Positions 10,275 to 23,461 of a stretch of DNA of 39,977 nucleotides are shown one piece after another. Each line of letters starts with the position of its first letter. The stretch's first letter is position 1. This DNA comes from Deltaproteobacteria bacterium. Lineage in GTDB: Bacteria; Desulfobacterota; Deferrimicrobia; Deferrimicrobiales; Deferrimicrobiaceae. A program made the translations under genes and the position numbers. Location: assembly GCA_020346465.1 (NCBI GenBank), contig CP070783.1, positions 1,481,923-1,521,899 on the forward strand, read 5' to 3'. The notes beneath the pieces are model-generated. The model was given only the letters and a program-made list of their open reading frames with translations. It was not told the origin of the DNA and did no database searches.

Positions 10275-11498
10275 TTACGCCTCCGTTTCCCGGGGCGCCT
10301 TCGCGAACTCCTTCCACGGCGGGAGAACCTTCAGGAAGACCGCCAGGATGACCAGGGGCAGCGCGAGCAGGGCCAGGGTGTACAGCAGTCCCTCGATCCC
10401 CCCGAACTCCATCTTGTACGTGGTCAGCCCCCGGAAGCTCTTGGAGAACATCTGCCCGCCGATCACGACGTTCCAGCGGGTGGCGAAGATCCCTCCCTGG
10501 ATCAGGATCAGGGAGACGAAATAGAGCATCTTGCGGAGCTCCTCGCTCTCCCGGAACCGCCGGAAGATCTTGATGGCGGAGAGGATGCCGAGGGGGAAGA
10601 GCATCCCCATGAGGACCTGGACGATGACCAGGCTGAAGAAGATCTTGTTCATGACCAGTTCCCCGAGGATCTTGATCTCCTCCTCGCTCTGGTAGATCCG
10701 GTGGATGAAGTCGACGAACTCCAGGGAGAAGTCGACGATCACGGCGTAGAAGAGGAAGGACATCCCCTTGTCGACGCACTTCATGTCGATCTTCCCCCCC
10801 ATCATGGGGTAGATGAACATGTACAGCAGGATCACCAGCGCGATCCCGGAGACGATCGCGGAGAACAGGAAGACGATCGGCATGAGGACGGAGCTCCACC
10901 ACGGGTTCGCCTTGATCGACCCGAAGATGAAGCCGACATACCCGTGGAGGAGGAACGCCGAGGGGATCCCGATGATGGTGATGACCTTGAGCGCCCGGTT
11001 GTCGAACCGGAGGGCCTCCTCGCTGGTGTCTTTCGAAAAGAGGGAGAGGACCCGGTGGACGTGTTTCATCACCCCCTTCTCCTCCTGCCCCCAGACGATC
11101 ATGTCCTTCCGGTAGTCGAACCAGATCTCGACCAGGAGGACCACCATGAGGTACCAGGCGTAGACGAATCCGAACATCGCCATCGCGGAGCTGGTCTGGG
11201 GGGTCAGGAAGATCTCGTAGGCGCGGAACGGGTGCCCGAGGTGCGATACCAGCGACAGCGGCGCCACGAGAAGGAACGCGAGCGCTGTCAGGAGGGCGAG
11301 CCGGTAGAGGGGCTGGACCTCTTTCACGTTGAAGACCTTGACGAGGGAGGCGAGGATGAACGCCCCCGCGACGATCCCGGTGATGTACGGGTAGACGACG
11401 ATGAGGAGGCCCCAGTGGACCTCGATCTCGTTGGGGTAGATGTACCCCGTGATATGGGGAAGGATCTCGCGCAATTTCTCCAACATGGCCGGGTTCAT
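10275..11498 (-). CDS. NrfD/PsrC-type quinone-interacting membrane subunit (module A)
   Basis: 407 aa integral membrane protein with about 9-10 hydrophobic helices, belonging to the NrfD/PsrC/HybB family, which binds quinone and passes electrons to or from an Fe-S partner. Recognisable stretches include EVHWGLLIVVYPYITG in the first helix, LVAPLSLVSHLGHPFRAYEI and WYLMVVLLVEIWFDYR. It contains no cofactor motif of its own, as expected. ATG 11498 overlaps the upstream Fe-S gene's stop (ATGA), giving the gene order cytochrome, Fe-S protein, NrfD. It should transfer electrons between menaquinone and the octahaem cytochrome via the Fe-S protein. Confidence 0.88.
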   Translation of the reverse strand: MNPAMLEKLREILPHITGYIYPNEIEVHWGLLIVVYPYITGIVAGAFILASLVKVFNVKEVQPLYRLALLTALAFLLVAPLSLVSHLGHPFRAYEIFLTPQTSSAMAMFGFVYAWYLMVVLLVEIWFDYRKDMIVWGQEEKGVMKHVHRVLSLFSKDTSEEALRFDNRALKVITIIGIPSAFLLHGYVGFIFGSIKANPWWSSVLMPIVFLFSAIVSGIALVILLYMFIYPMMGGKIDMKCVDKGMSFLFYAVIVDFSLEFVDFIHRIYQSEEEIKILGELVMNKIFFSLVIVQVLMGMLFPLGILSAIKIFRRFRESEELRKMLYFVSLILIQGGIFATRWNVVIGGQMFSKSFRGLTTYKMEFGGIEGLLYTLALLALPLVILAVFLKVLPPWKEFAKAPRETEA

Positions 11499-12241
11499 CG
11501 CACTTCTCCGTCGATATTGGCGTAGAGGACCTTCGGCTCGGTGTTGAGGTTCGGCTTGAGGACGAAGATCTTGTTCATCCGCTTGAACCGGGTCATCGGG
11601 CTGGCCGGGCTGTTCAGGTCCCCGATGACCCGGGCCTGGGTCGGGCAGACCTCGACGCAGGCCGGCAGCAGTTCCCGGTCGAGCCGGTGGTAGCAGAACG
11701 TGCACTTGTCCGCCGTATCCGTCGCCGGGTGCAGGTACCGCGCCCCGTACGGACACGCCTGGATGCAGTACCGGCACCCGATGCAGGTCTTGTCGTTGAC
11801 GAGCACGACGCCGTCATCCGTGGAGAAGGTGGCGCCCACGGGGCAGACCTGCACGCACGGCGGGTGGGCGCACTGGTTGCAGAGCTTCGGGACGAAAAAG
11901 CTCCGGAAGATGGGACGGGACGGGATCTCCTCCTCCGGCGCCAGCCCCGTGTGGATGTTGGTGACCACCGCCTCCCCCGTCCTCGGGATCATGTATCTCT
12001 CCACCCAGGTCCGGTAGAAGAACGGCTCCTTCGGGACGTTGTTCTCCGTCTTGCACGCCACGACGCAGCGCGCGCACCCGATGCACTTGTCCACCGACAC
12101 CCCGAACCCCCACAGCTTCCCGGCGGGCTCCTCCTTCGCCTGCCCCCAGGCGGGAACCCCACGCAGGAAGCCGCCCAGCGCGCCGCCCGACAGGGCGAGA
12201 GCGGACAGGAGCTTCTTGAGAAACGATCGACGGTCCATCAT
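11495..12241 (-). CDS. Tat-exported four-cluster Fe-S protein (module A, DsrO/NrfC-like)
   Basis: 248 aa. A twin-arginine signal (DRRSFLKKLL) and hydrophobic stretch precede a ferredoxin-like domain with sixteen cysteines in four groups: CIGCARCVVAC (Cys53, 56, 59, 63), CNQCAHPPCVQVC, CIGCRYCIQAC, and the split pair CTFC plus CVEVC. This is the NrfC/DsrO/PsrB pattern with four cubane clusters, which wires an NrfD subunit to a periplasmic redox partner. The Tat signal places it outside the cytoplasmic membrane. The start is the first of two adjacent ATGs (12241), sharing ATGA with the upstream cytochrome stop. There is no Mo-enzyme in this module, so the partner is likely the octahaem cytochrome. 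Confidence 0.9.
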   Translation of the reverse strand: MMDRRSFLKKLLSALALSGGALGGFLRGVPAWGQAKEEPAGKLWGFGVSVDKCIGCARCVVACKTENNVPKEPFFYRTWVERYMIPRTGEAVVTNIHTGLAPEEEIPSRPIFRSFFVPKLCNQCAHPPCVQVCPVGATFSTDDGVVLVNDKTCIGCRYCIQACPYGARYLHPATDTADKCTFCYHRLDRELLPACVEVCPTQARVIGDLNSPASPMTRFKRMNKIFVLKPNLNTEPKVLYANIDGEVR

Positions 12242-12984
12242 TCCGCCTCCGGAAGGTGGGGGTAATGGCACTGCCAGCAGACGTATTTCTCCCCGTGTGT
12301 GGCCAGGTCGATCTTCGGGGAGCCCTTGTAGGGCGATTCCTGCCCGTGGCATTTCCCGCAGAAATCCCGGCTGGAAGGCTTGGTCGGTTTTACGACCCTC
12401 GGGGAAACCCGGTGCCGGCTCGGTACGTCGTGGCACGTGGTGCATTTGAGCTGGACGTGATGGGATACCGAGAGCGTCCTCGCGATCTCGCCGTGGCATG
12501 CCGAGCACTCCCGCGGGACCGTCGGCGGCTTCGGATCGTGGGGGTTGTGGCAGGTAAAGCACGCCTGCATCGGGTTGTGGGCCACCGGGTTGATCATCGG
12601 AAATCCCCTCGGGCGCGAAGGATTGAACGTGTGGCACACGGGGCAGAATTTCCGGTCCCGGGGCGCCGACGGCTTGATGTTGTCCGGGTCTTCGGTGTGG
12701 GCCATCGCCGGGCCGTGGCACGTCTCGCAGGACAGGTCGCGGTGGTACCCCCGCTTCTTCTCCGCCACGATCTCGTCGTGGCACTCCGTGCAGGCGACCG
12801 CTCCGGCGTACCGGACCGGCTTGGCGACCTCCGTCTTGACCGTGTCCGCCCACTGGATCTTCGTGTCCTTGAACCGGGGGGGGATGACGAACTTCACGAC
12901 GACGATGGTGCCGACGATGAAGACGGCGAAAACGGTGACGAGCCGCAACGCGGACTCGGGCATGTTCTGCAACGGTTTTTTCAT
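12238..12984 (-). CDS. Octahaem c-type cytochrome, membrane-anchored (module A)
   Basis: 248 aa with one N-terminal membrane helix (LRLVTVFAVFIVGTIVVV) and a periplasmic domain carrying eight CxxCH haem sites in order: CTECH, CETCH, CPVCH, CFTCH, CSACH, CTTCH, CGKCH, CWQCH. Additional His residues between sites fit bis-His coordination, and the layout suggests a NapC/NrfH-unlike, doubled c7/c3-type fold. The product should receive electrons from, or give them to, the Fe-S/NrfD pair encoded immediately downstream. I chose ATG 12984, which keeps the helix at the N-terminus; AAGGAGG lies 12 bases upstream, slightly far. A GTG at 13035 would add 17 residues. A minus-strand TTGACA lies at 13163-13168. 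Confidence 0.88.
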   Translation of the reverse strand: MKKPLQNMPESALRLVTVFAVFIVGTIVVVKFVIPPRFKDTKIQWADTVKTEVAKPVRYAGAVACTECHDEIVAEKKRGYHRDLSCETCHGPAMAHTEDPDNIKPSAPRDRKFCPVCHTFNPSRPRGFPMINPVAHNPMQACFTCHNPHDPKPPTVPRECSACHGEIARTLSVSHHVQLKCTTCHDVPSRHRVSPRVVKPTKPSSRDFCGKCHGQESPYKGSPKIDLATHGEKYVCWQCHYPHLPEAE

Positions 12985-13139
12985 GAACGAGGCGATCCTC
13001 CTTGGAAACGAGACGATGGATGACCGGTCAGACACAACGGGTACGCAACCTCATTTTGAAATCGTGTCTCGGCGGAACGTGAAGACCCCCCGAGGGGATC
13101 TAACTCGGGATATTCGTCCCCGTCCACAAAATGGAAAGA

Positions 13140-13374: not shown

Positions 13375-13869
13375 ATGAACCATTGGAAACTATTAACAAT
13401 TCCTGCCTTCCTCTTATTCTTTGTGGGCGGTTGCTCTGATTCGGGAAGGTTCTCCCAACCGATTGCCTATAATCACAAGAAGCATATAGAAGAAGCAGGA
13501 CTTGGCTGTTTTGACTGTCACACCGGAGCACAAACCCATCAAAAAGCCTCCATCCCCAATATCCATTTTTGCAAGAACTGCCATGAAGAAGCGATGACGG
13601 ACAGCAAAGAGGAGGAGAAACTCGTCGGCTTCATCAAAAAGAATGAGCTGATCCCTTGGGTCCAGGTGCACCGGGTGCCCGACCATGCCTATTTCTCGCA
13701 CAGGCGCCACGTCTCGCTCGGAAAAATCGCCTGCCAGGACTGCCACGGCGATGTGAACAACATGACCCTTCCTTTTACGAAGCCGCATGTTTCGATCAAT
13801 ATGGAGTTCTGCATCCGGTGCCACGAATCGAAACAGGTAACCACCGATTGCGCAGCATGCCATCGTTAG
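13375..13869 (+). CDS. Pentahaem c-type cytochrome lipoprotein (module B, ActA/c7-like)
   Basis: 164 aa. A lipoprotein signal ends at FVGGC with acylated Cys20. Five CxxCH sites follow: CFDCH, CKNCH, CQDCH, CIRCH, CAACH, with extra histidines (HKKH, HRRH, KPHV) that can act as distal ligands, as in c7/c3-class cytochromes. ActA of alternative complex III is also a pentahaem cytochrome at the start of its operon, and QrcA is a hexahaem one, so this is probably the haem wire of the module B complex. GGAGGGG sits just before ATG 13375. The gene is clearly AT-richer than its neighbours (42-50% GC in successive 60-base lines, against ~65% nearby), which may mark transfer or a different expression constraint. 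Confidence 0.88.
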   Translation: MNHWKLLTIPAFLLFFVGGCSDSGRFSQPIAYNHKKHIEEAGLGCFDCHTGAQTHQKASIPNIHFCKNCHEEAMTDSKEEEKLVGFIKKNELIPWVQVHRVPDHAYFSHRRHVSLGKIACQDCHGDVNNMTLPFTKPHVSINMEFCIRCHESKQVTTDCAACHR

Positions 13870-13885
13870 CTCGCAGGAGCAGGGA

Positions 13886-16246
13886 ATGAACATCTCGCGT
13901 CGCGCATTTCTTCAAATGCTGGGAGCAACGGGCGCTCTCGCCGGGGGGGCTTCCCGGATCTGGGCGATACCGGACGAGTGGAGGGAGATCCTGCGATCCG
14001 GACCCCGCCTGGAGACGTGGAAGATGTCCGCATGCGGGCAATGCCCGGCGGGATGCGGCATTCGTGTGCGGCTGGTGGACGACATCCCGGTTCGGATTCT
14101 CGGCAACCCGATCGCTCCTGTGAACAAAGGCTTTGTCTGCCCGATGGGGGAAGCCGGACTCGAACTCCTCTACCATCCCGACCGGATAGGCCAGCCCATG
14201 CGGCGCAAGGGGAAGAAGGGCGAGCCGGGGTGGGAACCCGTTTCCTGGGATGACGCACGGAAGACAATCTCCCAGGCCCTCAAAGGGTTCAAGAAAGGGA
14301 AACAGCCCGGCGCGTTGGGGTTCCTGATGGGGGACCGGAACACGCTCCTAACGGAATTCGCGGGGGAATTCGTCTCACGCCTGGGGTCTTCCCACTTCTT
14401 TCCCTGGCGATCCCCCCGCATCAACGAGTTGGGATTCTGGCAGGGGGCGGGAGAATTCCCTCCCTTCGCGTTCGACCTGACACGCACGGATTTCCTCCTC
14501 ACCTTCGGCACGAACCTGTTGGAGGAACCCCTGTCCCCCGTCTACTTCAACCGGATCTACGGGGGGTTGAAAGAGAAGCGGGCGCGCACGGGCCTGAAGA
14601 TGGTGCATGTGGACGCGCGCATGTCCCAGGCCGGCAGGAACGCCACAGAGTGGGTGCAGATCCGTCCGGGAAGCATGGGCGTTCTCGCCCTGGGCATGGC
14701 GTACGTGATTCTGCGGGACCAAACGTACGACCGGAATTTTGTGAGCCGCCACACCATGGATTTCCGGGAGATGGTCGACCGGGACTACCACCCCGATCGG
14801 GTCTCCGAGGTCACCGGGGTCCCGGCGCAGACCATCCTCCGGCTTGCCCGGGAATTCAGCTCCGCGAAGGCGCCCCTGGCCTTATCCGGGGGGAACCTGT
14901 CCTCCAGCGAAACGGAGCTGTTCTCCCAGTGGGCGGTGGCGAGCCTCAACGCCCTGTCCGGCAGTTTTTCCGCGAAAGGATTGTGGCGCGAACCGGTGCC
15001 GGTCCCCTGGGGAACGCCCTCCGTCTCCGCTTTCAGCCCCCGTTCTGCCGCTTTTTCCCGCAAGCCGGAGAACGCCCTCGGTTCCGACATGCCCGCGGCC
15101 TGGGTCGCGGAGAGACTCCCGGATCTTGCAGCGGCCGGGAAAATACCCGACCTCGAAATGCTTCTGATCGCGCAGGTCGACCCGGTGTTTCTCGCGGCGA
15201 ACCAGAAGGCGTGGAGGGATTGGCTTGCCCGAATCCCTCTCGTGGTCCAGTGCGCAACGATGATCGATGACACCTCGCCCTATGCCGACCTCGTTCTGCC
15301 GATGACTACGTATCTGGAGCAGTGGGACCTGACGCTGCCCACTCCGGATCTTCCCTTTTCCCAGCTGGGCCTTCAGCAGCCGGTCGTTTCCCCGGTGGGT
15401 GGCGCGCGTTCCCTCGGAGACATCCTCCTCCACCTCGGAAGGGAGGCGGGCGTCGACCTGCACCCGGGAAGCGGCGGAACACCGTATGGAGAGTACGTAG
15501 AAGCACGGATGAAGCAGATCTTCGCTTCGGGGAAGGGGACTCCGTTCTTCGAGGCGGTTTCCCTGGAATTCCTGGAGGATCTGCGCAGACGGGGCTGGCA
15601 GGTATACAGCTACCCGGCCTTCCAGGACTTCTGGCGTCTGCTCCGGGAAAAAGGGGGGTGGTGGGACCCGGGGGAATATCCGGCGGTGGACTGGAATCGG
15701 AGAACGTTCCTCTTTCCGACCGATTCCCGCATGGCGTCCCTGCTGAAGGAGTCCATGATCCCCCGATCGGAGGAGGGAGGGGAAAAAAGCGCCAAGACGC
15801 CCAACCTTTGGCTCGAAGACGGAATCCGGAGACCCGATGGCCCCGACTCCTTTCTCCTGGTCCCCTTTACCTCGCTCATGAACATGACCGGTGACGGGGC
15901 CAGCCTGCCCCTCCTGCAGGAGATGTTCGGGCTGTACCCCCGCCTGTACTGGAACACCTGGGCGGAGATGAACCCCCAACGGGCCGCTCGCCTCCAGCTC
16001 AAGGACGGGGACCTTATCCGGGTGATCTCCGGAAAAGGCGTGATGACGCTCCCCGTGCGGGTCGTCCCCACGGTTTCCCCCGAAATTCTGTCCGTTCCGT
16101 TCGGCCAGGGGCACACGGAATCGGGAAGACATGCGAAAACCATCGGGGCGAACCCGATCGTGATGCTCGACCACCGTGCGGACCCGCTGAGCGGGCGCAA
16201 CTCGTGGCAGTCGACTCTCGTCCGCGTGGAGAAGATCAACCGATAA
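13886..16246 (+). CDS. Molybdopterin-oxidoreductase-like subunit without visible Mo-ligand Cys (module B)
   Basis: 786 aa. A twin-arginine signal (SRRAFLQMLGATGALAG) leads to a CISM-superfamily catalytic-type subunit. The N-terminal [4Fe-4S] motif is intact (Cys50-x2-Cys53-x3-Cys57-x27-Cys85). The middle has the family's folds (LLTFGTNLLEEPLSP, VVQCATMIDDTSPYADLVLP), and the C-terminal ~130 residues are the dinucleotide-binding domain (ARLQLKDGDLIRVISG). In the stretch where PsrA/PhsA/formate dehydrogenase place the Cys or Sec that binds Mo (after FVSRLGSSHFF) I see Pro, Trp, Arg and Ser but no Cys. That suggests a subunit kept for structure, as in ActB1 of alternative complex III or QrcB. 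AGGAG precedes ATG 13886. The Fe-S partner follows 12 bases after its stop. Confidence 0.85.
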   Translation: MNISRRAFLQMLGATGALAGGASRIWAIPDEWREILRSGPRLETWKMSACGQCPAGCGIRVRLVDDIPVRILGNPIAPVNKGFVCPMGEAGLELLYHPDRIGQPMRRKGKKGEPGWEPVSWDDARKTISQALKGFKKGKQPGALGFLMGDRNTLLTEFAGEFVSRLGSSHFFPWRSPRINELGFWQGAGEFPPFAFDLTRTDFLLTFGTNLLEEPLSPVYFNRIYGGLKEKRARTGLKMVHVDARMSQAGRNATEWVQIRPGSMGVLALGMAYVILRDQTYDRNFVSRHTMDFREMVDRDYHPDRVSEVTGVPAQTILRLAREFSSAKAPLALSGGNLSSSETELFSQWAVASLNALSGSFSAKGLWREPVPVPWGTPSVSAFSPRSAAFSRKPENALGSDMPAAWVAERLPDLAAAGKIPDLEMLLIAQVDPVFLAANQKAWRDWLARIPLVVQCATMIDDTSPYADLVLPMTTYLEQWDLTLPTPDLPFSQLGLQQPVVSPVGGARSLGDILLHLGREAGVDLHPGSGGTPYGEYVEARMKQIFASGKGTPFFEAVSLEFLEDLRRRGWQVYSYPAFQDFWRLLREKGGWWDPGEYPAVDWNRRTFLFPTDSRMASLLKESMIPRSEEGGEKSAKTPNLWLEDGIRRPDGPDSFLLVPFTSLMNMTGDGASLPLLQEMFGLYPRLYWNTWAEMNPQRAARLQLKDGDLIRVISGKGVMTLPVRVVPTVSPEILSVPFGQGHTESGRHAKTIGANPIVMLDHRADPLSGRNSWQSTLVRVEKINR

Positions 16247-16258
16247 GGAGTCTCGCCG

Positions 16259-16939
16259 ATGAAGTGGGGGATGGTGATCGATCTGCAGAAATGCACCGGC
16301 TGCGGGGAATGCGCGGCCGCCTGCAAGCTGGAGAACAACGTGGCCATCGTGGAGCCCAGGGAATCGGAGATGGGGAGAACGATGCTCTGGATGGACATGC
16401 TCACCATCTACGAGGGGGAGTATCCCCGGCTCCGGGTGCGGCAGATCCCCCGGCCCTGCATGCATTGCGATCACCCCCCCTGCACGAAGGTCTGCCCGGT
16501 GCGCGCCACGTACATGAACGAGGAAGGGATCGTGGCGCAGATCTACCCCCAATGCATCGGGTGCCGCTACTGCATGGCCGCCTGTCCCTACACGGTGAAA
16601 TCCTTCAACTGGTACAAACCTTCCTTCCCGCCCGGAATGGACCGGGCCACCAACCCGGATGTCTCGGTCCGCCCCGTAGGCGTGGTGGAGAAGTGCACCT
16701 TCTGCATTCATCGTCTCCAAATGGCCAAGGAGCAGGCGAAATTCGAAGCACGCGATTTGCGGGAAGGAGACTTCCAGCCGGCGTGCGCGGACAGCTGCCC
16801 GACCGGCGCGATCGTCTTCGGAGACCTGGAGAACAGGGATCACCAGGTAAACCATCTCGCGCACAGTCCTCGTGCGGAGAAACTCCTGGAAGATCTGGGG
16901 ACTGAGCCGAAAGTCATCTATCTAAAAGAGGTGGATTAA
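16259..16939 (+). CDS. Four-cluster Fe-S subunit (module B, PsrB/ActB2-like)
   Basis: 226 aa without signal peptide; it is probably carried across the membrane with the Tat-tagged partner upstream. Sixteen cysteines fall in four groups: CTGCGECAAAC (Cys12, 15, 18, 22), CMHCDHPPCTKVC, CIGCRYCMAAC and CTFC…CADSC. The insert between the third and fourth groups (FNWYKPSFPPGMD…VRPVGVVEKC) is typical of the alternative-complex-III B2 and module C type proteins. In ACIII the equivalent domain is fused to the Mo-like domain; here the two are separate genes. It should bridge the pterin-like subunit or haems and the NrfD protein, whose ATG directly abuts its stop. Confidence 0.9.
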   Translation: MKWGMVIDLQKCTGCGECAAACKLENNVAIVEPRESEMGRTMLWMDMLTIYEGEYPRLRVRQIPRPCMHCDHPPCTKVCPVRATYMNEEGIVAQIYPQCIGCRYCMAACPYTVKSFNWYKPSFPPGMDRATNPDVSVRPVGVVEKCTFCIHRLQMAKEQAKFEARDLREGDFQPACADSCPTGAIVFGDLENRDHQVNHLAHSPRAEKLLEDLGTEPKVIYLKEVD

Positions 16940-18286
16940 ATGGAACACGCCTCCGCTCGGCCTCATCCGGATGCTGCGCTGCTCAACCCCATCGAGAATC
17001 CCGGAAGAACGTATTACTACATCGTGGTGGGGCTGCTGGTCATCATTCTGTACACCGGATTCGTCTATTTTCGGCAGCTCTGGTACGGACTGGGCGTCAC
17101 GGGGATGGCCCAGCCCGTTACGTGGGGTTTTTACATCATCAATTTCGTCTTCTTCATCGGGATCAGCCACGCCGGCACGCTGATCTCCGCCATTCTCCGT
17201 CTGTCCAAGGCCGAGTGGCGACGCCCGATCACCCGCATGGCGGAAGTCATCACCGCGATCGTCCTCGCGATCGGGGGGTTGCATCCGATCATCGACCTGG
17301 GCCGCCCCGACCGGATATCGCATCTCTTTTTCAACGGCCGGCTCCAATCTCCCCTGCTCTGGGACGTCGCCAGCATCACGGCGTATTTCACCGCCAGCAC
17401 GATCTACCTGTACATTCCCCTGATCCCGGACATCGCGATCCTTCGGGATCGCGGAGTGAAACCACGGTGGCTGTACGAATTTCTCTCCTGGGGCTGGCAG
17501 GGAACCGAACGGCAGCACAAGGTGCTCGACCGAGCGATGAACATCCTGATGGTCATGGTGATCCCCATCGCGGTTTCGGTGCACACGATCATCTCCTACA
17601 TCTTCGCCATGACCGTGCAGCCGGGCTGGCACAGCACCATTTTCGGCCCCTACTTCGTGGTCGGGGCGATCTTTTCCGGCATCGCCGCAATCCTGGTCCT
17701 GATGATCGTCTTCCGCAAGGTCTTCCATCTGGAAGGGTACCTGAAGCACATCCACTTCAACTATCTCAGCATCCTGCTGCTGATCATGTCGCTGATCTGG
17801 TTCTACTTCACGTTTTCGGAATACCTGACCGGCTTCTATGGCCATGAACCCAACGAGATGCGCGTGTTCTGGTACAAATTCGCGGGGGACTTCGCGCCTT
17901 ACTTCTGGGCGATGATCGTCTGCAACTTCGCCCTCCCGGTCGCCATCCTCTGCAACAGCAAGACCCGCACGATCCCGGGAATTCTGATCGCCTCCATCTC
18001 CGTGATCATCGGGATGTGGATGGAACGTCTGATCATCGTCGTCCCGTCCTTGGCCAACCCCCGGTTGCCCTACCCCACAGGGATCTACATCCCCAGCCAC
18101 ACGGAATGGATGCTGTTTCTCGGGGGGATCTCGGTGTTCATCCTGGGGTACATGATCTTCGCCCGCTTCTTCCCCGTGATTTCGATCTGGGAGATCGAAG
18201 AGGGGCGCCACGAGAGCGCCAAGATCGTTGCCGAACGGATCACTTCCTACATGCCGGATCCGGAACCCTCCGCGACGGGGGAATAG
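16940..18286 (+). CDS. NrfD-family quinone-interacting membrane subunit (module B, ActC-like)
   Basis: 448 aa, about ten membrane helices. It opens with a ~30-residue polar stretch and the segment LLNPIENPGRTYYYIVV, then VTWGFYIINFVFFIGISHAG, a segment typical of the ActC/QrcD/PsrC branch, and GGLHPIIDLGRPDR, which includes the conserved Asp/Arg near the quinone site. It starts on the base after the Fe-S gene's stop, so the subunits are made together. Alternative complex III has two such proteins (ActC and ActF); only one is present here. The protein would oxidise or reduce menaquinone and could contribute to proton movement. Confidence 0.9.
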   Translation: MEHASARPHPDAALLNPIENPGRTYYYIVVGLLVIILYTGFVYFRQLWYGLGVTGMAQPVTWGFYIINFVFFIGISHAGTLISAILRLSKAEWRRPITRMAEVITAIVLAIGGLHPIIDLGRPDRISHLFFNGRLQSPLLWDVASITAYFTASTIYLYIPLIPDIAILRDRGVKPRWLYEFLSWGWQGTERQHKVLDRAMNILMVMVIPIAVSVHTIISYIFAMTVQPGWHSTIFGPYFVVGAIFSGIAAILVLMIVFRKVFHLEGYLKHIHFNYLSILLLIMSLIWFYFTFSEYLTGFYGHEPNEMRVFWYKFAGDFAPYFWAMIVCNFALPVAILCNSKTRTIPGILIASISVIIGMWMERLIIVVPSLANPRLPYPTGIYIPSHTEWMLFLGGISVFILGYMIFARFFPVISIWEIEEGRHESAKIVAERITSYMPDPEPSATGE

Positions 18287-18366
18287 GGAGGAATCCGGGA
18301 AAAAATGTGTCGCGCATCGAACGGGAGGTTCTATACACTCAATGAAAGGGATACGGAGATCCGCCC

Positions 18367-18609
18367 ATGAATAAGAAAACCATCGAAGCGCTTCAAGTAC
18401 TCTCGATTTCCCTGATCTGGGTGTTGTTCACCGGGATCGCCGTCTGGATTGTCAGCCTGCTGAGGGAATCCCTCAGGCTGCACGACGCACCGGATGCTTC
18501 CGTCGGGATCAGCATCATTGCGATTCCCGTCTTTTTCACCCTCGCTTCGATCCTGACGTACGTGTTCATCGGTTTGAGAAAAGGGCGGAAAGAGGAATCG
18601 GAACCGTAG
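18367..18609 (+). CDS. Small two-helix membrane protein (module B)
   Basis: 80 aa with two predicted membrane helices (about residues 9-32 and 46-69) and a basic C-terminal tail (RKGRKEE). I do not recognise the family. GGAG lies about eight bases before ATG 18367. The position, between the NrfD gene and the terminal cytochrome, is where alternative complex III operons encode ActD/ActE, so it is a good candidate for an accessory subunit. It could also help assemble the complex or anchor the cytochrome. Confidence 0.7.
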   Translation: MNKKTIEALQVLSISLIWVLFTGIAVWIVSLLRESLRLHDAPDASVGISIIAIPVFFTLASILTYVFIGLRKGRKEESEP

Positions 18610-18667
18610 GGAACATCCGAGGTCGGATCGCCGGAGACCGGGGAGATCGTCGAGGGAGATGACATCC

Positions 18668-19909
18668 ATGCGAGAGAGGAAATCAAGCACGATTGCCGTT
18701 GGCACATCCGGAGTGCTTTGCCTTCTCGCCGTCGCCGTCCTCCTGATCGGGGGCGGTTGCAGCAAGAAGGAAACCGGCCCGACGGAGAGGACCATCTCGA
18801 AATCAGAGCCTGCGGCCTTCCAGCCCCAACTGAACAGCGACCTCATCCAGGGCCGGAAGGTCTTCGAGGAAAAACATTGCAGCCAGTGCCACTCGATCTT
18901 CGAGCGGGAGCGGAAGATCGGGCCCAAGCTGGGATCCGACAGGGTCTACGGAAGCTTCCTGGACATCTTCTCCACCCTTTGGAACCACGCCCCGGCCATG
19001 GCGGTATACATGAGAAAAGAGGTGCTGGACCGCCCCCGGTTCAGCACGCCCGAACTGAACCAACTGGTCTCTTTTCTCTATATGCTGCCCTATCTCGGCG
19101 AATCGGGGAGTCCCCGGAAAGGCGAGGCTTTGCTCCAGGAAAAAACCTGCTTTGAATGTCATTCCCTCGGCAGAAAAGGGAGAAAAGACGGGGTACCGCT
19201 GGATGCTCTCGGCGTCTACCAGTCCCAGGTCATCCTGCTGCAGCGCATGTGGAACCATGGGCCGGAGATGATCGGACAGATGGAGTCGAAAGGGACCGCC
19301 ATCCCCACCTTTTCCGGCAACGACATGACGGACATCTTTGCCGCCCTGACGGAATCGGCGACGGAGAAAAGCCGAAAAGTATTCCTGGGAGTCGGAAACA
19401 CGGAAAACGGGCGGAAGATTTTCACGGACAAGGGATGCTCCAAATGTCACGCCATCTTCGGCAAAGGAGGGAAGGAGGCGCCGGATCTGGGGAAAGCCGT
19501 TTCCCAGGCGAACGTTACCTCGCTGATCACCCAGATGTGGAACCACGCGGGGACCATGCGGAAACGGTTTGCCAAGATGAAACTGACGTGGCCGTACTTC
19601 CACGAAACGGAGATGAACGACCTGATCGTGTTCCTTTACTCGTTAAATTACGAGGACAAATCCGGGGATGCCGCGAAGGGAGAACGAATCTTCCGGGACA
19701 ACCGATGCGTCGACTGCCATTTCAAGACAGACGCGGACAAACAGAAGATCGTCGGTGACATCAAATCGGCCAACGCCATATTGTTCGCCACGCACCTGTG
19801 GAACCACATTCCCGCCATGGAGGCCGCGATGGTGACCCAGGCGGTGCCGTGGCCCGAGATGAGCGGCCAGGATCTGCGGGACGTCCTCGCGTTCCTCAAG
19901 GGTCAATAA
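18668..19909 (+). CDS. Lipoprotein with four tandem monohaem cytochrome c domains (module B)
   Basis: 413 aa. A lipoprotein signal ends at IGGGC (Cys31). The rest is four class-I-like cytochrome c units, each with one haem site (CSQCH, CFECH, CSKCH, CVDCH) followed ~45-55 residues later by a repeated WNH motif (LWNHAPAM, MWNHGPEM, MWNHAGTM, LWNHIPAM) and a final helix with FLY or FLK. The Met at the end of the motif may be the sixth haem ligand; this is inference. The subunit probably takes electrons from the module B complex, like ActE, but with four haems in a row. ATG 18668 is preferred because AGGGAG is nine bases upstream; ATG 18659 overlaps that site. Confidence 0.87.
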   Translation: MRERKSSTIAVGTSGVLCLLAVAVLLIGGGCSKKETGPTERTISKSEPAAFQPQLNSDLIQGRKVFEEKHCSQCHSIFERERKIGPKLGSDRVYGSFLDIFSTLWNHAPAMAVYMRKEVLDRPRFSTPELNQLVSFLYMLPYLGESGSPRKGEALLQEKTCFECHSLGRKGRKDGVPLDALGVYQSQVILLQRMWNHGPEMIGQMESKGTAIPTFSGNDMTDIFAALTESATEKSRKVFLGVGNTENGRKIFTDKGCSKCHAIFGKGGKEAPDLGKAVSQANVTSLITQMWNHAGTMRKRFAKMKLTWPYFHETEMNDLIVFLYSLNYEDKSGDAAKGERIFRDNRCVDCHFKTDADKQKIVGDIKSANAILFATHLWNHIPAMEAAMVTQAVPWPEMSGQDLRDVLAFLKGQ

Positions 19910-19925
19910 CCGGGCGCAACGCGGG

Positions 19926-19946
19926 CCGGTCGGCACCCCCGACCGG
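19926..19946. terminator. Hairpin between convergent modules B and C
   Basis: CCGGTCGG and CCGACCGG form a perfect 8-bp stem with a 5-base loop, sixteen bases after the module B cytochrome stop and six before the module C NrfD stop. No strong T-run follows, so it is a probable rather than certain bidirectional terminator. Confidence 0.5.
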
Positions 19947-19951
19947 TCTCC

Positions 19952-21250
19952 TCATTGCGTAAGCAGGTCCCCCTCCTCCCCGACATCCTCTGCCACCCGG
20001 CGGACAAGGAACAACTCGTCGCCGATGTGCGGGTGGATCCCGTCCTCCCCCACGTGGAAGTCGCCGTTCATGATCGGGATCGCAATCCGGAGGAGCATCG
20101 TGTACACCAGAAGCCCCGCCGCCCAGATCCCCATGGTAACCAGGATCTCGGTCCCGGTCGGGGAGTACTCGTAGAAGTCCCCGAGGACGTCCGGGACGAA
20201 TCCCGGGATCACGAGCCCCATCCCCTTCTCGATGTACACGCCGACGAAAATGAGGATGCAGCCGATGTTGAGAGTGACCTGGTTCTCCCGCGTCTGGGGG
20301 ATCAGGAAGAGGAAGAAGGCCGTGATGTTGAACAGGGTCGCGGTCCAGATGTAGGAAACGAGGTCCGAGTGCCCTTCGAGACCCTGGTACAGGTACTTCA
20401 TCGGCGCCAGGTGGGCGGTGTCGGAGTAGTACTCCTTGAACACCTCGGCGCCGAGCAGGAACAGGTTGAGGAACATCGCGTAGGCGATGAGTTCCGCGAT
20501 CTTGAAGATCGCCTGGTCCGTGATCTTGAACTTCGTCCACTTCCGGATGACCTGGAACATGAGGATCATGCCGGCCGGCCCGGAGCAGAACGCCGAGGCG
20601 AGAAACCGCGGGGCGAGGATCGACGCGTTCCAGAAGGGCCGCGCCGCCAACCCGTTGTAGAGGAAAGCGGTCACCGTGTGGATGGAGACCGCCGCCGGAA
20701 TGGAGAACAGCAGAAGCGGCGTGACGTACTTCATGTTCGGCTGGCGCTTGTAGTAATAGCTGTACAGCATGTACCCCGCGATTGAAAAGTTCAGGACGAG
20801 GTACATGTTCAGGACGACGACGTCCCACGCCAGCAGGGACTGGGGGAAGTTCAGGATCCCGATCTTCGGGATCAGATGCCAGAACCGTTCGGGACGCCCG
20901 AGGTCGACCGTGACGAAGAGCAGGCACATCACCATCGCGGATACGGCCACGAGCTCGCCCAGGATCGCGATCTCCTTGATCGGCTTCCACTGGTAGACGT
21001 ACGCCGGGATGACGAGCAGGACGGCGGCGGCCGCCACGCCGACCATGAAGGTGAAATTGGAGATGTAGAACCCCCAGGAAACCTGGTCCCGCATGGCGGT
21101 GACGATCAACCCGTTGTACAACTGATTCACGTAGGCGGCGACCCCGATTCCCACGAAGGCCAGTAGGACATAGACCCAGGTATAGTAGAGCTTGCTTCCC
21201 TGCCTCAGGAGGATGAAACAGCCCTTGACGAACGCCCAGACTTTTTTCAT
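19952..21250 (-). CDS. NrfD-family membrane subunit, DsrP/HmeB-like (module C)
   Basis: 432 aa, about ten membrane helices. The opening QGSKLYYTWVYVLLAFVG, then VSWGFYISNFTFMVGVAAAA and VTVDLGRPERFWHLIP, resemble DsrP/HmeB of the sulphite-reduction DsrMKJOP complex and related Hme/Act proteins. It should bind menaquinone and exchange electrons with the Tat-exported Fe-S protein encoded upstream (19 bases between them). The C-terminal ~30 residues are polar and acidic. There is no dsrM, dsrK or dsrJ nearby, so this is not a standard Dsr complex. Confidence 0.87.
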   Translation of the reverse strand: MKKVWAFVKGCFILLRQGSKLYYTWVYVLLAFVGIGVAAYVNQLYNGLIVTAMRDQVSWGFYISNFTFMVGVAAAAVLLVIPAYVYQWKPIKEIAILGELVAVSAMVMCLLFVTVDLGRPERFWHLIPKIGILNFPQSLLAWDVVVLNMYLVLNFSIAGYMLYSYYYKRQPNMKYVTPLLLFSIPAAVSIHTVTAFLYNGLAARPFWNASILAPRFLASAFCSGPAGMILMFQVIRKWTKFKITDQAIFKIAELIAYAMFLNLFLLGAEVFKEYYSDTAHLAPMKYLYQGLEGHSDLVSYIWTATLFNITAFFLFLIPQTRENQVTLNIGCILIFVGVYIEKGMGLVIPGFVPDVLGDFYEYSPTGTEILVTMGIWAAGLLVYTMLLRIAIPIMNGDFHVGEDGIHPHIGDELFLVRRVAEDVGEEGDLLTQ

Positions 21251-21269
21251 CGGTTCCCTCTCCCGCCGG

Positions 21270-22196
21270 TCAGACGGAGTAGAAGTAGTAGAACTTCGGC
21301 TGGGTATTTAACTCCTCCTTGAGGATGAACACCCGCTTGTTCTCGATCACGAAGCGGATCTCGCTTTCCGGGTCGAGCAGGTTCCCGAACTTGCGGGCCC
21401 CGACGGGGCAGACCTCGACGCACGCCGGATACTTGCCCTCCATCTCCCGGGTGCGCTGCATGCAGAAGATGCACTTCTCGACCACCCCGACGGGCCTCGG
21501 GCGGTTCCCCAGGTAATGCGTGTCGGGGTTCACATCCGCGGCCGGCAGGCCGGGTTTCTTCCAGTTGAAATGCCTCGCCCCGTAAGGGCACGCCGCCATG
21601 CAGTACCGGCAACCGATGCACCAGTTGTAATCCACCACCACGATGCCGTCGTTCTCCTTCCAGGTCGCCTGGACCGGACACACCTTGGTGCACGGCGCAT
21701 TTTCACACTGATGGCACTGGACGGGCATGTAGAAATGCCCTTCCTCGGGGACGTTCGCCGGGTTGTAGTACTGTTCGGCGTGCTCCAGGTCGACCCCCCT
21801 TTCCTTGGACAGCCGGAGAACCCGGATCCAGTGGATCTGGGGGTCGCGGGACTGGTTGTTTTCGGACACGCACCCGTACACGCACCTGCGGCATCCGATG
21901 CAACGGGACAGGTCGAGGCCGTACCCGTACAGCACGCCCTCCAGGGAGGGTGTCGTCTTGACCTTCACCGGCTTGCCGTAGCGGGTGCTGTATTCTGCCT
22001 CGAGCCGGGCCACGACGTCCTGGACCTCGGACCGGCTCAGTTCCCGGAAATTCTTCTGGAAAAACGATTCCCAGACGGCGGCGGAAGCATCGTTCGAGGG
22101 AACGGCCAGCGCGCCCAGCCCCGCCGCCAGTCCCTTCAACGCTTTCCTGCGCGTGAGCCGGAAGATGCGATCCGCGCGCGTTTTCCTATCCGACAT
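21270..22196 (-). CDS. Tat-exported four-cluster Fe-S protein (module C)
   Basis: 308 aa. The twin-arginine signal is LTRRKALKGLAAGLGAL (Arg16-Arg17). An extra ~60-residue helical stretch precedes the ferredoxin domain. Cysteine groups are CIGCRRCVYGC, CHQCENAPCTKVC, CIGCRYCMAAC and CIFC…CVEVC, giving four [4Fe-4S] sites as in DsrO/HmeA and ActB2. GAGGAG lies eight bases before ATG 22196. It sits between the tetrahaem cytochrome and NrfD genes and should join the two. Confidence 0.9.
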   Translation of the reverse strand: MSDRKTRADRIFRLTRRKALKGLAAGLGALAVPSNDASAAVWESFFQKNFRELSRSEVQDVVARLEAEYSTRYGKPVKVKTTPSLEGVLYGYGLDLSRCIGCRRCVYGCVSENNQSRDPQIHWIRVLRLSKERGVDLEHAEQYYNPANVPEEGHFYMPVQCHQCENAPCTKVCPVQATWKENDGIVVVDYNWCIGCRYCMAACPYGARHFNWKKPGLPAADVNPDTHYLGNRPRPVGVVEKCIFCMQRTREMEGKYPACVEVCPVGARKFGNLLDPESEIRFVIENKRVFILKEELNTQPKFYYFYSV

Positions 22197-22236
22197 GTCG
22201 TTCTCTCCTCAACGGGTTGGTGGGCAACCTGCCCCC

Positions 22237-22782
22237 TTACCGTATGTTTTCCGCACGTTCGGGAGGCGGCTTCGGCTGGATCGGTTTGAACCGGGGGTTG
22301 TGCGGATTATGGCAATGAGCGCACAGCAGGTATTCCTTCCTCCCGTTCCACAATCCCGTGCGCTTCCCGTGGATGCCCATCTTCCAGTCACGGTATTTGT
22401 CCCCGTGGCACTGGCCGCACAGCCGGTAACTGTGGTTGAAGTCGATCTGCTCCCCGGACACCAGCCTCAGTTTGTCGCGGTTCTTCAAATCGTGACAGTC
22501 CAGGCACCATCGCTCGTTTTCCGCGTGGTTCTTCAGTTGAATGTCCGTGTGCTCATCCTCGAGGACCCGGCGTTTCGGGTTCGGGGGAATGTCGGAGTGG
22601 CACTCGGTGCAGGGAAAGATCCCCTCCGTAAACGGAGGCGGCGGAACCATGTAGTCCTCGGTCTCCGATTTCGGCGGCGTCAGCCAGAACTCCCTGCGGC
22701 CGGCGTGTCCCGCAACCGTGACAAAAATCGTGACTGTCGCCAGAGCAAACGCAGCAAGGAAATAGATCGTACGGTTTTTCAT
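22237..22782 (-). CDS. Tetrahaem c-type cytochrome, membrane-anchored (module C)
   Basis: 181 aa. An N-terminal helix (IYFLAAFALATVTIFVTV) acts as membrane anchor or uncleaved signal. Four CxxCH sites follow: CTECH, CLDCH, CGQCH, CAHCH, with several free histidines suitable as distal ligands. The C-terminus is Pro-rich. It is larger and richer in haem than DsrJ, which has three haems. I chose ATG 22782, which has GAGG six bases upstream; a GTG at 22794 would add four residues. A minus-strand TATATT at 22844-22839 may be its -10 box, but no good -35 is visible. Confidence 0.85.
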   Translation of the reverse strand: MKNRTIYFLAAFALATVTIFVTVAGHAGRREFWLTPPKSETEDYMVPPPPFTEGIFPCTECHSDIPPNPKRRVLEDEHTDIQLKNHAENERWCLDCHDLKNRDKLRLVSGEQIDFNHSYRLCGQCHGDKYRDWKMGIHGKRTGLWNGRKEYLLCAHCHNPHNPRFKPIQPKPPPERAENIR

Positions 22783-22907
22783 TTCACGCCTCACTCGCCT
22801 GGAGGGAATAGGGCCGGCAGCAAACGCAAGCGGTTCCTAATATACACCGAGGTTGCGCCCACCTCCATGATTTTTCCCCTTCGCCGGCCTCCGGCCTTTC
22901 CCGCACA

Positions 22908-22945: not shown

Positions 22946-23461
22946 TTACCCGTCCTGCATCCGGAGCCCCTGGGCCTCCAGGAAATCGAGGTATTCGTAG
23001 ATGATGTTGAAGTGGGAATCCTCCTCGCCCGCAAGGAGCTTGAAGAACCTCTTCTCCTGGGGGTTGGTCGCCGCCTTCGACATCCGCAGGTACATCTCCC
23101 GCCCCTCCGCCTCGAAGGCGAGGGCCTTGCGCATCCCGTCCACCGCCTCCCCGGAGATGACCTTCTCCTTCCGGATCCGGCTGTGCTCCCGCCGGAACAG
23201 CCGCATCCTCGAGTCGTGCGGCGTGCTCGACACCTTGGGGAATTTCCCCTCCTCCTCGAGCTTGCGGGCGATCGCCTGGATATCCTCCATATGTTTCGTC
23301 TCCAGCTGCGCCAGCAGCAAAAAGACGTGCTTGGCGAACGAATCCACGCTCTTGGCGGCGGCCGCGGTGAAAAAGCGCTTCCCCTCCGTCTCGAACCGCA
23401 ACGCCCTCTCCAGGGCGCTCGCGGGGTTCTTCTTTCCCGCTGTCAGACCGGGTTTCCGCAT
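22946..23461 (-). CDS. Rubrerythrin-like ferritin-superfamily protein
   Basis: 171 aa, all-helical, with the two-fold ferritin-like pattern: FETEGKRFF followed by LETKH (Glu54-x2-His57), then FEAEGREMY followed by EEDSH. These Glu and ExxH residues form the di-iron site of the rubrerythrin/erythrin family, which reduces peroxide or stores iron in anaerobes. There is no C-terminal rubredoxin domain, so the electron donor is separate. GGGAGGG directly before ATG 23461 sets the start. It probably protects the iron- and haem-rich respiratory proteins from oxidative damage; that link is inference from position. Confidence 0.82.
   Translation of the reverse strand: MRKPGLTAGKKNPASALERALRFETEGKRFFTAAAAKSVDSFAKHVFLLLAQLETKHMEDIQAIARKLEEEGKFPKVSSTPHDSRMRLFRREHSRIRKEKVISGEAVDGMRKALAFEAEGREMYLRMSKAATNPQEKRFFKLLAGEEDSHFNIIYEYLDFLEAQGLRMQDG

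Follow-up and report, generated by a model that had tools for sequence, protein, structure and literature searches.

In the alternative complex III (ACIII) of R. marinus, residues of the membrane subunit ActC have been proposed to form two proton half-channels, and the cluster beside the quinol site is a [3Fe-4S] cluster at +140 mV (PMC5928083). Proton pumping by ACIII itself has no experimental confirmation (PMC13059093), and whether and how these complexes pump protons is an open question in the field, as is the relation of ACIII to the Qrc complex. For the latter, mutation of either of two residues of the membrane subunit QrcD, D70 and Y110 (equivalent to HybB D58 and Y99), abolishes function (PMC13059093), and its QrcB subunit has been described in the literature as being without redox cofactors.

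The subunit composition of ACIII is variable. In iron-oxidising bacteria, ActB is split into separate actB1 and actB2 genes, and ActB1 carries the same CX2CX3CX27C motif that we report below (PMC4643136). For the MBNT15 bacterium SHF-111, a further study describes a "cluster 4" that comprises ActABCD together with an ActE-like protein with four haems and that is flanked by two counter-oriented operons, each encoding an Fe-S protein, an NrfD protein and a multihaem cytochrome; a role in Fe(III) reduction was proposed there on the grounds that oxidase genes are distant from it (PMC9386147).

Here, we analyse a gene cluster of this kind, module B, from a Deltaproteobacteria bacterium. It lies in a window of 39,977 nucleotides, i.e., the whole stretch of DNA that was analysed. 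Module B probably encodes a quinone:cytochrome c oxidoreductase that resembles ACIII, with a B subunit that is split and non-catalytic, a single membrane subunit of the ActC type and, as the counterpart of ActE, a lipoprotein with four haems. Its predicted activity would pass electrons from quinol to cytochromes located beyond the inner membrane.

Gene layout of module B

Six plus-strand open reading frames at 13375-19909 form the compact cluster of module B, with two further modules on the opposite strand on either side:

A, 13375..13869, plus strand: pentahaem c-type cytochrome with a lipoprotein signal, ActA/QrcA-like, 164 aa
B1, 13886..16246, plus strand: molybdopterin-fold subunit with a Tat-like signal, without a Mo-ligand residue, 786 aa
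C, 16259..16939, plus strand: Fe-S subunit with 16 Cys, ActB2/QrcC-like
D, 16940..18286, plus strand: membrane subunit, NrfD-like and of the ActC type, with about 10 helices
Small membrane protein, 18367..18609, plus strand: 80 aa with two predicted transmembrane helices (TMHs), at the ActD position
Cy4, 18659..19909, plus strand: lipoprotein cytochrome whose four class-I haem domains lie in tandem, replacing the monohaem ActE
Module A (flanking, divergent), 10275..13035, minus strand: octahaem cytochrome, Fe-S protein and NrfD protein
Module C (flanking, convergent), 19952..22794, minus strand: tetrahaem cytochrome, Fe-S protein and DsrP-type NrfD

The intergenic gaps from the first to the sixth gene of module B measure 16, 12, 0, 80 and 49 bp, and the gene order is kept in relatives with 63-86% B1 identity, so this arrangement is not a product of chance. 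It had already been read in a first-pass annotation as a six-subunit order of pentahaem cytochrome, pterin-fold subunit, Fe-S subunit, NrfD, small membrane protein and cytochrome, with B1 and B2 as separate genes and only one NrfD, and every part of this is borne out at its coordinates. The ATG of A at 13375 is preceded by a purine-rich stretch. A promoter scan of module B returned a single site just within the first gene and near chance level, and a terminator scan stayed at chance level. An inverted repeat without a T run (ccggtcg...cgaccgg, 19921-19946) sits where the genes of Cy4 and module C converge.

B1 has no Mo ligand and groups with ActB and QrcB

B1 matches the Pfam families Molybdopterin, Molydop_binding and Molybdop_Fe4S4 and contains a complete [4Fe-4S] motif of the form CX2CX3CX27C (Cys50/53/57/85) besides one further Cys at position 456. 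In an alignment of 80 relatives, the Mo-ligand column is occupied by Cys in 10 of 11 catalytic reference rows (PhsA/PsrA-like) and by Ser in the remaining one, E. coli DmsA. At this column, B1 and its near relatives show a gap, which comes from a loop shortened by about two residues behind "GSxH/N", and no Ser, Asp or Sec substitutes for the ligand in B1. The alignment with Cys-ligated enzymes thus confirms the earlier claim that B1 is without a Mo-ligand Cys. Two findings had been named in advance as speaking against the first-pass reading of module B, i.e., a Mo ligand in the active-site column or a position of B1 among the PsrA/PhsA enzymes, and we found neither. The B-subunit tree places B1 in a clade (support 100) with ActB and QrcB, apart from the catalytic PhsA/PsrA-type enzymes; inside this clade, QrcB and ActB each form a clade of their own (100 each), and the module-B family has no firm position between them.

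The pocket as a whole has been eroded as well. Over 173 columns that are conserved in 21 catalytic rows, mean retention is 0.52 in the module-B family, 0.51 in QrcB, 0.47 in split ActB1 and 0.33 in fused ActB, compared to 0.92 in catalytic enzymes, so B1 has degraded to the same extent as QrcB and split ActB1. A model of B1 (pLDDT 79) has ArrA and PsrA as its best fold matches in the PDB (TM about 0.7-0.77); ActB is absent among the 50 structure matches listed for this model, and the comparison did not separate the hypotheses considered below.

We also considered the retained [4Fe-4S] motif as a distinctive feature of B1 and rejected it, since the motif is common to most ActB1 and QrcB: all four Cys are retained in 10/10 split ActB1, in 9/12 fused ActB (including the fused ActB of the source genome) and in 18/20 of the QrcB sampled. 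The motif is therefore present as first annotated, but it is widely shared and has been published, and it does not set B1 apart. Among the QrcB-type proteins of QrcABCD loci (L062-L085), the two that do not keep all four Cys are L077 and L082.

An ActC-type membrane subunit beside an all-Cys proximal cluster site

Compared to PDB sequences, cytochrome A (five CxxCH motifs and a lipobox) has four ActA chains as its sole matches (best E 3.6e-24), C matches best to four ACIII structures, in their ActB2 domains, and D (PF03916, E 2.7e-34) matches four ActC chains (E 1e-68 to 1e-72) and then ActF alone, with no PsrC. In the D tree, 13 members of the module-B family group together (96) and are joined to ActC plus ActF (99), apart from QrcD, HybB and DsrP. 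A weak NCBIfam match of D to DsrP (116 bits against a cut-off of 350) was rejected on the basis of this tree and the residues described in the following. No ActF is found in module B, which has one NrfD gene, and the NrfD proteins flanking it are DsrP-type or unplaced, not ActF.

Relative to R. marinus, D is identical at 19 of the 20 ActC channel residues, i.e., at 14/14 of the cytoplasmic and 5/6 of the periplasmic ones. From this set, broadly just the equivalents of Tyr176 and Arg395 persist in QrcD-type rows. D has Phe69 and Leu109 at the two sites that correspond, by way of E. coli HybB D58 and Y99, to QrcD D70 and Y110; most ActC likewise have Phe and Leu there, and 23/23 QrcD have Asp and Tyr. 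At the quinol site, where ActC has His139, Asp169 and Asp253, D has Asp119, Asp142 and Ile221, so that one residue out of three is kept, and Asp119 sits at the QrcD D120 site.

The 16 Cys of C provide room for four [4Fe-4S] clusters. Its CIGCRYC motif includes Cys102 and Tyr104, and the column of Cys102 holds Cys in 14/14 members of the module-B family and in 23/23 QrcC, while ACIII has Thr in 22/23 (10/10 split and 12/13 fused). The Thr-for-Cys substitution that ACIII shows at the quinone-proximal cluster is thus absent from C. An all-Cys proximal site predicts a [4Fe-4S] cluster, which would probably have a lower potential than the [3Fe-4S] cluster of ACIII. The Tyr of CIGCRYC would be the equivalent of QrcC Y113 above the quinone, judging from the described place of Y113 between two Cys ligands. 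At the level of sequence, the module-B family is therefore a mosaic: its channel is of the ACIII type, its first cluster resembles that of Qrc/Psr, and its quinol site is altered.

The small membrane protein and the four-haem cytochrome Cy4

The 80-aa protein at the ActD position has no family match above cut-off and no detectable similarity to ActD. The ActD of ACIII has two helices, a domain on the cytoplasmic side and, in TMH2, a conserved Glu, a combination that the small protein does not show, its second helix being free of Glu. Relatives of it were found in families f1, f2 and f95.

Cy4 carries a lipobox and four CxxCH motifs at 74/164/260/350 (PF00034, E 2.3e-22), i.e., module B has a lipoprotein with four haem domains instead of the monohaem ActE of ACIII. 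Alignments of its domains with one another span 83-96 residues and contain 22-34 identical positions, far more than with shuffled sequences, and each of the four repeats has a "WNHxPxM" motif that is conserved in relatives. A Foldseek search with a model of Cy4 (pLDDT 78.8) gave nothing significant. Both the CxxCH motifs and the internal repeats uphold the initial description of the last cytochrome as four-fold, though as a difference to ACIII this feature is already on record for SHF-111 (PMC9386147).

Comparison with described complexes

Module B resembles the split ACIII encoded by actAB1B2CDEF (PMC4643136) in its pentahaem A, a B1 with CX2CX3CX27C, a separate B2 and an ActC-type D with the channel residues. 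It differs by the absence of ActF and of a recognisable ActD, by a four-haem instead of a monohaem cytochrome, by a proximal-cluster Cys in place of Thr and by the replacement of the quinol-site residues His139 and Asp253. The ActF-less ACIII of Nitrospirales (PMC12342949) likewise combines a split B with the lack of ActF, but is set apart, by description, through its actD/actE genes, behind which a CydA-like oxidase gene is found in most cases. QrcABCD of sulfate reducers shares with module B a multihaem A, a separate cofactor-poor B, a four-Cys proximal cluster and one NrfD; however, QrcD belongs to another clade with Asp70/Tyr110, Cy4 is missing there, and module B misses all NCBIfam cut-offs for Qrc. 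Finally, SHF-111 cluster 4, going by its description, matches module B in content and layout, and the content described there shows no difference (PMC9386147).

The split B1/B2, which the first-pass annotation had counted as a difference, is a published feature of ACIII (PMC4643136), and so is the lack of ActF (PMC12342949), to which its remark on a single NrfD corresponds. Also known already are the [4Fe-4S] motif of ActB1 and the four-haem ActE-like protein (PMC9386147). New here is a recurrent family with mosaic characters: 22/395 sampled genomes of the phylum have a D that is 49% identical or more, with the next group at no more than 47%.

Phylogenetic placement

In a concatenated A-B1-C-D tree rooted on catalytic B subunits, Qrc (100) and ACIII (100) are recovered, and the module-B family (monophyly 68) joins ACIII (85) from outside the ACIII clade; in a reduced concatenated set, this join is supported by 85/89. 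An AU test on a smaller concatenated set with a simpler model rejected neither the grouping of the family with Qrc (p 0.25) nor that of ACIII with Qrc (p 0.22). Each of QrcB, QrcC and QrcD forms a separate clade that leaves the module-B members outside. In the C tree, the module-B family is not recovered, and its member L058 is placed with ACIII.

An evolutionary reading that is compatible with an ACIII-like function sees the family as a stem lineage between Psr/Qrc-like enzymes and ACIII that predates the Cys-to-Thr change, the B fusion and ActF. We regard this as conceivable, if somewhat short of probable. It is in line with the mosaic characters of the C cluster and of the quinol site and channel of D, with the position beside but outside ACIII in the rooted concatenated tree and with the lack of ActF. 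However, the AU test rejects neither other arrangement, the monophyly of the family is modest in the concatenated tree and absent in the C tree, and evolutionary sampling covered one phylum, which leaves room for secondary simplification. The same applies to the initial suggestion of an ancestral or intermediate form: the mosaic is compatible with it and the best trees place the family beside ACIII, but the branching order is not statistically settled, so that an ancestral form is plausible and an intermediate one the favoured reading of the trees. More tentative still is the fuller picture of a surviving ACIII stem lineage that would combine the full ActC channel set with a proximal cluster ligated by Cys throughout, presumably of lower potential, and with just one pump subunit. 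If true, module B would represent a minimal ACIII with one pump that serves anaerobic acceptors of low potential, and the pump would be older than the B fusion, ActF and the [3Fe-4S] cluster of high potential.

Predicted mechanism and rival explanations

For an ACIII-like module B, we infer that menaquinol would be oxidised at the periplasmic face of D and that electrons would pass from the proximal Fe-S cluster of C to the pentahaem A and then leave via Cy4 to periplasmic cytochromes. This oxidation would be coupled to proton movement, i.e., translocation via the ActC-type half-channels of D, and B1 would serve as a structural scaffold that keeps its Fe-S cluster motif and has no Mo site. The PDB matches of A, C and D, the D tree, the concatenated tree and the channel residues lend good support to the earlier description as a "split, minimal relative of ACIII". 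An ACIII-like complex is also favoured by Cy4, which like ActE is a class-I cytochrome and a lipoprotein and which nearly always adjoins such a D. What speaks against this reading is Cys102 in C, the replacement of ActC His139 and Asp253, the missing ActF and recognisable ActD, and a grouping with ACIII that falls short of significance with catalytic enzymes as the root (AU p 0.25 and 0.22 for the alternatives, as above). Cys102 and Asp119 are Qrc-like states that would suit a lower-potential site, possibly one running either way.

These two residues (the latter at the QrcD D120 site) and a split B are also shared with the main rival, a Qrc-type complex in which a reduced periplasmic cytochrome would, via Cy4 and A, reduce menaquinone with protons taken from the cytoplasm, the direction again being predicted. 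Among NCBIfam models, A, B1 and C do score best with QrcA, QrcB and QrcC, but all four Qrc models remain below their cut-offs (80.5/180, 260.9/440, 298.6/400 and 34.7/570 bits for A, B, C and D), the QrcD residues D70 and Y110 that are essential for Qrc are missing in D, and the QrcB, QrcC and QrcD clades exclude the module-B proteins. We thus consider a Qrc-type complex unlikely, and the "or Qrc" of the first-pass annotation is the weaker part of its proposal. That the ACIII reading is to be favoured over Qrc is well supported at the sequence level by the PDB matches, the 19/20 channel residues and the absence of the essential QrcD residues. Far less probable again is a working molybdoenzyme (PsrA/PhsA/ArrA-like) that would bind Mo without a protein ligand as in arsenite oxidase. 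The [4Fe-4S] motif kept in B1 would fit such an enzyme, ArrA and PsrA are the nearest solved relatives of B1 in sequence and fold, and a MobA-like gene is present, though with a model score under the cut-off. Against it stand the shortened ligand loop, the retention of only about half of the catalytic columns (0.52 vs 0.92) as in QrcB and split ActB1, and the position of B1 within the ActB/QrcB clade, whose characterised members contain no Mo (PMC13059093, PMC5928083).

A single-NrfD complex that retains the ActC channel set while deviating at the quinone site and the first Fe-S cluster would make the contributions of channel, redox potential and second membrane subunit separable in tests. The source genome additionally encodes a canonical fused ACIII (L086, G000:C1:1010000-1024000) adjoining a COX1-family oxidase gene, as well as a bc-type cytochrome b and further NrfD modules. 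No oxidase gene was recognised in the neighbourhood of module B, which therefore probably serves another acceptor. Should it feed extracellular or periplasmic acceptors, this would be relevant to Fe(III)-respiring uncultured bacteria.

Distribution and genomic neighbourhood

Cy4 is present in 18 genomes and adjoins a module-B-type (ActC-like) D in 17 of these, across seven families, with G056 as the exception. In G035, an extra Cy4 is found in a fused-ActB ACIII operon (L168, G035:C212), downstream and besides the monohaem protein. At another locus (L170, G198:C95), a second NrfD-like gene, divergent and with ten helices, comes after a D of module-B type and Cy4, and it may encode an ActF-like pump that was added to the module-B family. 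In a further relative of module B (L171, G149:C47), Cy4 is replaced by monohaem cytochromes flanking the module on either side and, upstream, a protein with 11 haems. The phylum also contains a strongly supported clade of split-ActB ACIII (L080, L095-L103), of which L080 has the full ActA-B1-B2-C-D-E-F order with monohaem ActE and ActF.

Modules A and C flank module B in close relatives, too. In family f9 (L051-L054), module C lies upstream of module B in the same direction, and its persistence beside module B despite the changed orientation suggests a functional link that has outlasted rearrangement. The NrfD of module C (19952-22794) scores 420 bits with the DsrP model (cut-off 350), and the tetrahaem cytochrome and a DsrO-like Fe-S protein are encoded beside it. 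After module C follows a gene that appears ferritin/rubrerythrin-like by sequence (22946-23461) and is retained in close relatives. In f9 (L052-L055), the operon continues past Cy4 with genes for a cNMP-binding protein and a GltD-like pyridine nucleotide/Fe-S flavoprotein.
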